Shown piece by piece: positions 5,195 through 6,520 of a DNA stretch of 18,952 nucleotides (its first letter is position 1; each line of letters opens with the position of its first letter). Source of the DNA: Spirochaetia bacterium (GTDB lineage Bacteria; Spirochaetota; Spirochaetia; Treponematales; Breznakiellaceae); NCBI GenBank assembly GCA_025997655.1, contig BNUW01000036.1:1-18952 (forward strand), given 5' to 3'. The notes under the pieces were generated by a model. It searched no databases. It saw only the letters and a program-made list of their open reading frames with translations, and had not been told where the DNA came from. Made by a program: the position numbers and the translations under genes.

Positions 5195-6520
5195 GTGGCA
5201 CGAAAACGCGGAGGGAGCGGCGCCAAAAACGGGCGGGATTCTAATCCCAAATATCCCGGCATAAAGGCCCAGGGCGGTTCCATTGTCAAAGCCGGGACCA
5301 TCATCGTCCGTCAGCGGGGAACCAGGATTCATCCCGGAACCAACGTAGGCTGCGGCAGGGATTATACCCTCTTTGCCCTGATCAGTGGCACGGTCAATTT
5401 CTCCCAACGCCGGGGCCGGAAACTCGCGTCGGTCGTTGCCAAAGATACATCTTTACCATCATCAAAGCCACCCGTACCGCAGCCAGCACCGCCGCTGCCA
5501 CCATCGGCATCGGACTCTCCACTACAGCCGCCGGTAATCGTACCATCGGCGCCCCCGTTACCGCCGGAACCAACACCGGAGCCCGCACCAGAACTACCGC
5601 CGGAACCGGAACCTTTACTGCCAGTACCATCACTGTTGCCCCTGATACTGGAACCGCCGCCGCTGCCAGAACCTGAGCCCGTATCGGAACCTGTCCCGGA
5701 GCCGATACCGCCAGAACCATTGCCAACAGAACTGGAGCCGGTACCAGACCCAGAACCTTTACTGCCAGCACCATCACTGTTGCCCCTGACACCGGAACCG
5801 CCGCCACCTGCACCTGCGCTAGAACTGACGCCACCGCCGCCAGAACCGATACCGCCAGAACCATTGCCAACGGAACCGGAGCCCGCACCAGAACTACCGC
5901 CGGACCCGGAACCTTTACTGCCAGCACCATCACTGTTGCCCCCGACACCGGAACCGCCACCCACGCCGCCAGCACCGCCCCTGCAGGGTTCCACTACCAC
6001 CCGGCGGCGCAAACCGGTAATAATTAGTATTATTGGCGTCTTACTACTATTTTTTTTATTGTTCGGCATACGACAATGCAAGATTTCAAAAACTGATAGC
6101 GCAGAATCACTGCCGACCCCAATCCCTGTTGAGGAAGCTATTATTGAGCCGGCTGTAACAGTATCACTGTTTCAAGATATCGGCGAAGCAATCTTCGTGG
6201 GTAATTCTTCCGAGTTGCTTCCCAATGCGGCAGGATGGCTTGATGAAACCGCAGAAAAAATGCGGCAAACATTATTGCAAAACCCTGAACAGAAATTTAA
6301 GGTTATCGGGTATGCCGCGATAGTTCCCGGGTTCCCTGACCCAAATGAACTTTCACGCCGGCGTGCCATAAAGGCTGTCGAGGAATTAGCCGCCCGTGCT
6401 ATTCCACGGGAAAAACTGGAACCGGTGGCAGGCGGGGAAACAGCTCAATGGGGAGACAATACCAATACGGAAACGCGGTTTTCTAACAGGCGGGCAGAAA
6501 TAAGAGCTGACCCCTACTAG
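5195..6520 (+). CDS. Ribosomal protein bL27 domain - proline-rich repeat linker - membrane helix - OmpA-like domain fusion
   Basis: A 441-residue single-frame protein starting at GTG 5195, with GGAGGG 5 bases upstream. Residues 1-86 are a complete bL27: MARKRGGSGAKNGRDS, then GGSIVKAGTIIVRQRGT, then NVGCGRDYTLFALISGTV. This includes the basic N-terminal tail that in ribosomes reaches the peptidyl-transferase centre. Residues about 87-268 are a linker of Pro, Glu and Leu built of three imperfect repeats (DNA 5607-5961). R270-K273 is followed by a helix (about 274-292, VIISIIGVLLLFFLLFGI). By the positive-inside rule the bL27 end and linker are cytoplasmic and the C-terminus periplasmic. Residues about 330-441 resemble an OmpA C-terminal domain (NELSRRRAIKAVEELAA, RFSNRRAEIR), but the usual GHTD peptidoglycan motif is replaced by GYAAIVPG. 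The ordinary rpmA neighbours (rplU, obg) are absent, so this is probably a second, repurposed bL27. A ribosome- or RNA-to-envelope tether is speculation. Confidence 0.88.
   Translation: MARKRGGSGAKNGRDSNPKYPGIKAQGGSIVKAGTIIVRQRGTRIHPGTNVGCGRDYTLFALISGTVNFSQRRGRKLASVVAKDTSLPSSKPPVPQPAPPLPPSASDSPLQPPVIVPSAPPLPPEPTPEPAPELPPEPEPLLPVPSLLPLILEPPPLPEPEPVSEPVPEPIPPEPLPTELEPVPDPEPLLPAPSLLPLTPEPPPPAPALELTPPPPEPIPPEPLPTEPEPAPELPPDPEPLLPAPSLLPPTPEPPPTPPAPPLQGSTTTRRRKPVIISIIGVLLLFFLLFGIRQCKISKTDSAESLPTPIPVEEAIIEPAVTVSLFQDIGEAIFVGNSSELLPNAAGWLDETAEKMRQTLLQNPEQKFKVIGYAAIVPGFPDPNELSRRRAIKAVEELAARAIPREKLEPVAGGETAQWGDNTNTETRFSNRRAEIRADPY
5607..5961 (+). repeat. Three imperfect repeats coding the proline-rich linker
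   Basis: Near-identical blocks of about 55 bases begin at 5607, 5751 and 5907 (all starting C-R-G-AACCTTTACTGCCAG), at intervals of 144 and 156 bases. They translate as PEPLLP(V/A)PSLLP. Between them a second shared block (ATACCGCCAGAACCATTGCC, starting near 5704 and 5848) gives PIPPEPLPT. The array makes both strands open, which creates long glycine/serine-rich antisense frames that are not genes. Copy number is likely to vary between strains. Confidence 0.8.

Follow-up and report, generated by a model that had tools for sequence, protein, structure and literature searches.

Ribosomal protein bL27, the product of rpmA, is ordinarily about 85 aa long and encoded beside rplU. Its N-terminus extends to the peptidyl-transferase centre, and its deletion in E. 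coli strongly lowers viability, partly by way of tmRNA interference (PMC12871816, available part). One described variant is Mrp7 of yeast, a bL27 that functions in mitoribosomes with an extra C-terminal domain; the available part of that account presents the addition as a mitospecific domain and describes no membrane helix or wall-binding domain there (PMC9943650). OmpA-like domains are carried by inner-membrane proteins such as MotB/PomB and TagL and, in Treponema pallidum, by the exported three-domain protein Tp0624 (PMC5104382, available part). Here we describe a gene that joins the two domains, found in an 18,952-nt stretch of DNA from Spirochaetia bacterium (contig BNUW01000036.1 of assembly GCA_025997655.1) that we analysed whole and call the window: a bL27 domain continues in one frame into a Pro-rich linker, a membrane helix and an OmpA-like domain. 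We give nearly even credence to the reading that its product is a second, envelope-anchored bL27 that could become part of 50S subunits and thereby tether them.

Bacterial ribosomes contact the membrane transiently during co-translational insertion, and we know of no ribosomal protein that has a membrane and wall anchor of its own. A literature search (one library; titles and the starts of abstracts) found no bL27–membrane fusion. Both domains are already known; what is new, within the literature searched, is their union and the predicted wall-anchored second bL27.

A conserved bL27 domain in a longer frame

The gene forms a single 441-aa frame, from a GTG at 5195 to a TAG at 6518–6520. The original prediction, of one uninterrupted frame joining bL27, linker, helix and OmpA-like domain, was borne out: 5195–6520 is open, with Pfam and NCBIfam matches above their cut-offs, and the stop or frameshift between the bL27 and linker parts that it had named as grounds for abandoning the idea is absent from the window sequence. 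Pfam Ribosomal_L27 (PF01016) matched residues 2–80 over profile positions 1–79 of 79 (108.5 bits, cut-off 20.5), NCBIfam TIGR00062, the L27 equivalog, scored 93.6 bits (cut-off 90.35), and Pfam OmpA (PF00691) matched residues 334–432 (29 bits, cut-off 27.2). The frame extends open upstream as far as an ATG at 4775; 5195 is nonetheless supported as the start because a homologue in another assembly (locus L051, below) begins with ATG at the equivalent residue, behind the identical GCGGAGGGATAC.

With the whole protein as query against 5.8 billion proteins (scored: the 7992 candidates with the most words in common), we recovered two homologues, each with both Pfam domains. P0001 (368 aa; OmpA profile 30.6 bits) is encoded at L051, in BNUR01000019.1 of Spirochaetia bacterium MS495-2, and P0002 is a 245-aa fragment that begins inside bL27 on a 1.4-kb metagenome contig (26.7 bits, slightly under the OmpA cut-off). 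A bL27 search of the family matched 167 of 195 genomes, including the window's own; among the matches listed, the window's open frame was the longest at 586 codons, followed by one of 186.

From this family search we assembled 33 ordinary bL27s, namely its 29 other best-scoring loci and the four of the genus mates (L005, the same gene as L034, was omitted here and from the bL27 tree and the rpmA dN/dS). Both full-length fusions retained 44 of the 45 columns invariant in that set, with the N-terminal tail intact. When each ordinary sequence was left out in turn, 30 of the 33 broke no column kept by the rest and the remaining three broke four, two and one. Because most ordinary sequences break none, the fused bL27 is near an ordinary bL27 in constraint, though not quite like one. 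Between the window and L051 the ratio of nonsynonymous to synonymous divergence (dN/dS) was 0.126 for bL27, 0.265 for the OmpA-like domain, 0.308 for helix plus OmpA-like domain and 0.076 for the neighbouring gene purA, as against 0.053–0.215 for ordinary rpmA (six pairs from the four genus mates). Both ends of the fusion are under purifying selection. The fused domain thus shares with ordinary bL27 its full length, intact tail, conserved columns and a similar dN/dS, and differs in its setting, as part of a far longer protein encoded away from rplU.

The linker is dominated by proline (82 of the 186 residues counted), leucine (28) and glutamate (23). Behind it lies the protein's single hydrophobic stretch: 19-residue windows with a mean hydropathy of at least 1.6 start only at residues 271–280, and the best elsewhere reaches 1.15. 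One helix with RRRK ahead of it fits a predicted N-in/C-out topology. A full-length structure model from a 3-row alignment had a mean predicted local distance difference test score (pLDDT) of 42.7 and was not used.

An OmpA-like anchor shared with other proteins

The OmpA end (residues 268–441) was predicted from a 34-row alignment, made up of the window and L051 sequences, four metagenome proteins and 28 sequences from genomes of the same order as the window, with a mean pLDDT of 85.3, and the model matched the domains of TagL, OmpA, Pal, MotB and Tp0624, as expected of an OmpA-like fold. The original prediction had noted a missing GHTD motif and taken it to suggest a changed periplasmic ligand. 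The motif is indeed missing, its position reading GYAA at residues 372–375, but its loss does not mark the fusion in particular, because the classical Asp is Ala in all 34 aligned rows and Tp0624, which does not bind diaminopimelate (DAP), carries the same change; the authors of that work invoke the ornithine that replaces DAP in most spirochaete peptidoglycan (PMC5104382, available part). Among the nine loci outside the alignment (L040, L043, L059, L060, L066, L077, L084, L085 and L086), the position is Met in L043 and Ala in L040, L059, L060 and L066. The suggestion retains some force at the Asn of NxxLSxxRA. Pro occupies this position in all six rows that belong to the fusion's anchor module, and also in L062 and L067, whereas the other rows have Glu, Gln or Arg (read by eye) and Tp0624 has Glu/Gln; the ligand of the module may therefore be altered. 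The peptidoglycan motif TD(x)7NxxLSxxRA, as given in the available part of PMC5104382, is thus incomplete in the fusion, with Ala for Asp and Pro for Asn, while the Arg of LSxxRA is retained. Peptidoglycan binding is accordingly likely from the modelled fold rather than from a complete motif.

The anchor is a module common to several proteins, judging by sequence. With the anchor end alone as query (1328 candidates scored) we found P0001, P0002 and also P0003, which has a different N-terminus and is 51% identical over 62% of that end; the anchor of P0003 in turn led to P0004 and P0005, whose anchors share 38% and 41% identity with that of the window and whose N-termini again differ. All three share the helix–RxC–linker–OmpA module with the fusion. 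More distantly, a helix (by eye) and an OmpA domain follow a long N-terminal part other than bL27 in L058 and L078, from the same order. In the order as a whole, the anchor gave 31 matches in 30 of 390 genomes at E≤1e-14, of which 26 start no earlier than model position 48 and so cover the OmpA part without the helix. L061, L062 and L067 show by eye the reverse order of a signal-peptide-like start, an OmpA-like domain, a helix and a tail. For P0003, P0004 and P0005, no N-terminal part had a named match in PADLOC, NCBIfam or PHROGs, the matches lying instead in fn3, helix or OmpA regions, and P0003 against PDB gave OmpA-type and weak matches only. A single helix, in many cases followed by RxC, and varied N-termini make a modular pattern, with fn3 domains also in P0005 and L058; the N-termini of P0003 (AHHIP) and L078 look HNH-nuclease-like by eye only and are unnamed by Pfam. 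From MotB/PomB, TagL and other inner-membrane proteins with an OmpA-like domain the fusion differs in its ribosomal-protein N-terminus and the lack of a MotA-like neighbour. We also considered and rejected identity with the Zorya ZorB/MotB stator, as there is no ZorA/MotA-like neighbour and the ZorB3 match is weak (21.2 bits) and confined to the OmpA part.

The modular pattern bears on the strongest competing explanation, in which helix and OmpA-like domain would be a general envelope anchor and bL27 an RNA-binding or other recognition domain working outside the ribosome, for example by retaining free rRNA, tRNA or some partner of bL27 at the membrane. The other N-termini on P0003, P0004, P0005, L058 and L078 speak for it, as does an unusual Leu21Pro shared by the fusions, whereas the constraint on the bL27 domain looks ribosomal. 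That we know of no non-ribosomal use of the bL27 fold also counts against it, and we regard it as a serious but somewhat doubtful alternative.

A probable extra copy between queH and purA

The second, ordinary rpmA for which the original prediction had suggested a search was not found in the host assembly (2.74 Mb, 402 contigs, 69.7% complete; the window is its contig C36), where the fusion is the sole bL27 found. Every living cell is expected to have rplU and obg, and these were not found in the assembly either. In the four genus mates rplU stands beside rpmA in every case, with a Prp protease gene between them (tested with Pfam in G142 and recognised by eye in the remaining three); obg comes next in three, a DUF1638 gene taking its place in G144. 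At L033–L036 a Prp-protease-like gene (Pfam-tested in L034) lies between rplU and rpmA, yet bL27 begins MARK there and has no N-terminal extension to cleave. The fusion gene sits elsewhere, between queH and purA. When the rpmA region of the close relative G142 was compared with the window's genome, contig C105 tracked it and ended 2.6 kb short of rpmA; the rest of the region was unmatched apart from the fusion's own bL27 at 75%, and beyond, the longest matches were two pieces of C70 (1.9 and 1.1 kb), with many short pieces on other contigs.

Synonymous divergence (dS) separates the fused bL27 from the rpmA of these relatives. Between the window and G142 it was 0.244 for purA and 1.32 for fusion bL27 against rpmA, and between L051 and G142 0.312 and 1.43; values above 1 are near saturation and rough. 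G144 and G141, which are more distant, gave a smaller ratio (purA 0.67 and 0.72; bL27 2.35 and 1.76, near saturation), and seven of the eight fusion–rpmA comparisons could be computed. Ordinary rpmA and purA, by comparison, agree (0.70 and 0.65 for G142–G144; 0.73 and 0.79 for G142–G141). Because its dS lies so far above that of purA, the fused bL27 appears not to be an ordinary descendant of the genus's rpmA, and the fusion is probably an extra copy, non-orthologous to the rpmA of relatives. In a bL27 tree (35 rows, 84 columns; P0002, which has only the last part of the domain, was left out) the two fusions grouped together (support 99/90), next to L016 (86/88), and a constraint placing them with the genus's own rpmA was not rejected (approximately unbiased test, p = 0.335). 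The fused bL27 may be an old duplicate or a transferred copy.

These data also bear on whether the fusion could be the organism's only bL27, with an anchor on every ribosome. The assembly's lack of any other bL27 is what such a reading would predict, but so much of the genome is missing, with rplU and obg, and C105 stops so shortly before the place of rpmA in G142, beside which rplU is expected, that we consider it very unlikely; the dS points to a non-orthologue, although it would still accord with a foreign or old copy having displaced rpmA.

At the insertion site, queH and purA are directly adjacent in G142, with no gene between them. A 39-nt promoter-like element stands once before purA in G142 and G141 (more diverged in G144), and in the window two copies, 87% identical, flank the fusion gene; a scan for the element's core in the window and six loci (L051–L056) found it solely ahead of purA and ahead of the fusion. 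Because the G142 gap is empty and the element single there, the fusion gene seems to have entered the gap along with a duplicated element. L051, whose purA is about as close to the window's as that of G142 is (dS 0.260 and 0.244), has an equivalent, more diverged repeat arrangement, so the insertion probably predates the split of the window and L051 lineages. The L051 fusion likewise lies upstream of purA and guaA; its 5′ context differs, with another ORF in the place of queH.

The architecture is rare. It was found in none of the four genus mates or other family genomes (195 searched with the helix–OmpA query at E≤1e-12; only the window's own matched), the 15 phage records that matched did so solely within the bL27 part and each covered less than 80% of the query, and viral contigs gave no match to the anchor end. 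The original prediction held that absence from all close relatives would point to an artefact; the near relatives do lack the architecture, but it recurs in one other assembly, MS495-2, and one metagenome contig. A chance fusion, non-functional gene or assembly chimera, which the mere three sequences, the 194 unmatched family genomes (many of them incomplete) and the repetitive linker DNA might suggest, is hardly credible, since an independent assembly of another species carries the same architecture before purA, which largely refutes a chimera, and since both the low dN/dS of the two ends and the ribosome-binding site are kept between the two.

A possible ribosome tether, and the surrounding features

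A ribosome or RNA tether best explains, as far as sequence can indicate, the preserved bL27 domain. Mrp7 illustrates that bL27 can accommodate extensions at its C-terminus, so the fusion, too, could be incorporated into 50S subunits and act as their tether. We suppose that an ordinary rpmA also exists and that a minority of 50S subunits would carry, in place of its product, the fusion's bL27 domain, which would lie in the cytoplasm; the Pro-rich linker would provide reach, variable with its length, the helix would lie in the inner membrane, and the OmpA-like domain would attach to the spirochaete wall. Ribosomes or 50S subunits would in this way form a stationary, wall-tethered pool close to the inner membrane, which might serve local synthesis, membrane-protein insertion or ribosome storage. 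A small share of credence is left for explanations other than those named here. More tentatively, and with less than even confidence, we picture ribosomes set aside for attachment to the wall through this second bL27, its C-terminus passing through the inner membrane to grip peptidoglycan.

Several points weigh against a tether. Ribosome entry, expression and wall binding are each predicted for the fusion, and no ordinary rpmA was seen for the window's species. Residue 21 is Pro in both full-length fusions and Leu in 33 of 33 ordinary bL27s, and that set is made up mostly of the best-scoring family bL27s, in which "invariant" columns are easier to find. The classical peptidoglycan motif has three critical residues, two of which are altered here, and the linker varies in length across the three homologues (185 residues in the window, 109 and 32 in the others). 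G142, a close relative whose assembly is 90% complete, has nothing between queH and purA and gave no anchor-end match at E≤1e-12, so not every relative requires the gene. Finally, because related anchor modules bear unrelated N-terminal parts, bL27 may be mere cargo on the anchor.

If the tether is real, it would be permanent and genetically encoded, and an anchored ribosomal protein would be a means of ribosome specialisation. Should the fused bL27 enter ribosomes, cell position would be inscribed in the ribosome itself, and localised, specialised bacterial ribosomes would become testable through one gene.

Table 1. Positions in the window of the fusion gene, its parts and adjoining features.
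Feature	Position	Strand	Basis
Fusion gene, bL27 – Pro-rich linker – membrane helix – OmpA-like domain	5195..6520	+	ORF, Pfam, NCBIfam, protein homologue search
Shine-Dalgarno-like GGAGGG, 5 nt ahead of GTG	5184..5189	+	Read from sequence; identical before ATG in L051
bL27 domain, residues 1–84	5195..5446	+	Pfam, NCBIfam, dN/dS, column comparison
Pro/Glu/Leu-rich linker, residues 85–269, DNA internally repetitive	5447..6001	+	Composition count, repeat search, hydropathy
RRRK (270–273) and predicted membrane helix (274–292)	6002..6070	+	Hydropathy; helix also in structure model
RQCK and short, presumably periplasmic linker, residues 293–323	6071..6163	+	Hydropathy, structure model, homologue comparison
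OmpA-like domain, residues 324–441, LSRRRA and NRR motifs	6164..6517	+	Pfam, 34-row alignment, structure model and matches
Upstream copy of 39-nt direct repeat, queH–purA intergenic promoter-like element, TATCCT 5158–5163	5133..5171	+	Repeat search, G142/G141 comparison
Downstream copy of 39-nt repeat, holding fusion stop codon and purA promoter-like element	6517..6555	+	Repeat search
queH, neighbour	4544..5092	-	Pfam; comparison with G142
purA, adenylosuccinate synthetase, neighbour	6554..7780	+	Pfam; ATG 6554 by comparison with G142 and L051

The nearest neighbours of the fusion gene by Pfam are SIR2, queH, purA and guaA (Table 1). A promoter scan of 5000–6700 gave no sigma-70-type site on the fusion's strand and one on the opposite strand. 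Ahead of purA, TATCCT ends 6 nt before the ATG at 6554, and the element (6537–6556 in the window) is conserved in G142, G141 and L051, so that the purA mRNA may be leaderless; downstream of the fusion's copy (5153–5197) comes an ordinary leader that includes a ribosome-binding site.

Elsewhere in the window, an N6 DNA methylase ORF at 13918–15100 stops within its profile (at 229 of 311) and is followed by a 101-aa DUF4435 ORF covering the first 64 of 238 positions, which looks like a decayed or interrupted restriction/defence region. A ThyX-like thymidylate synthase at 18225–18554 comprises the C-terminal third only (profile 125–191 of 191), and 193–1344 encodes a helix-turn-helix and IrrE-like M78 peptidase protein with RmrA-type PADLOC matches (best 6.8e-21).
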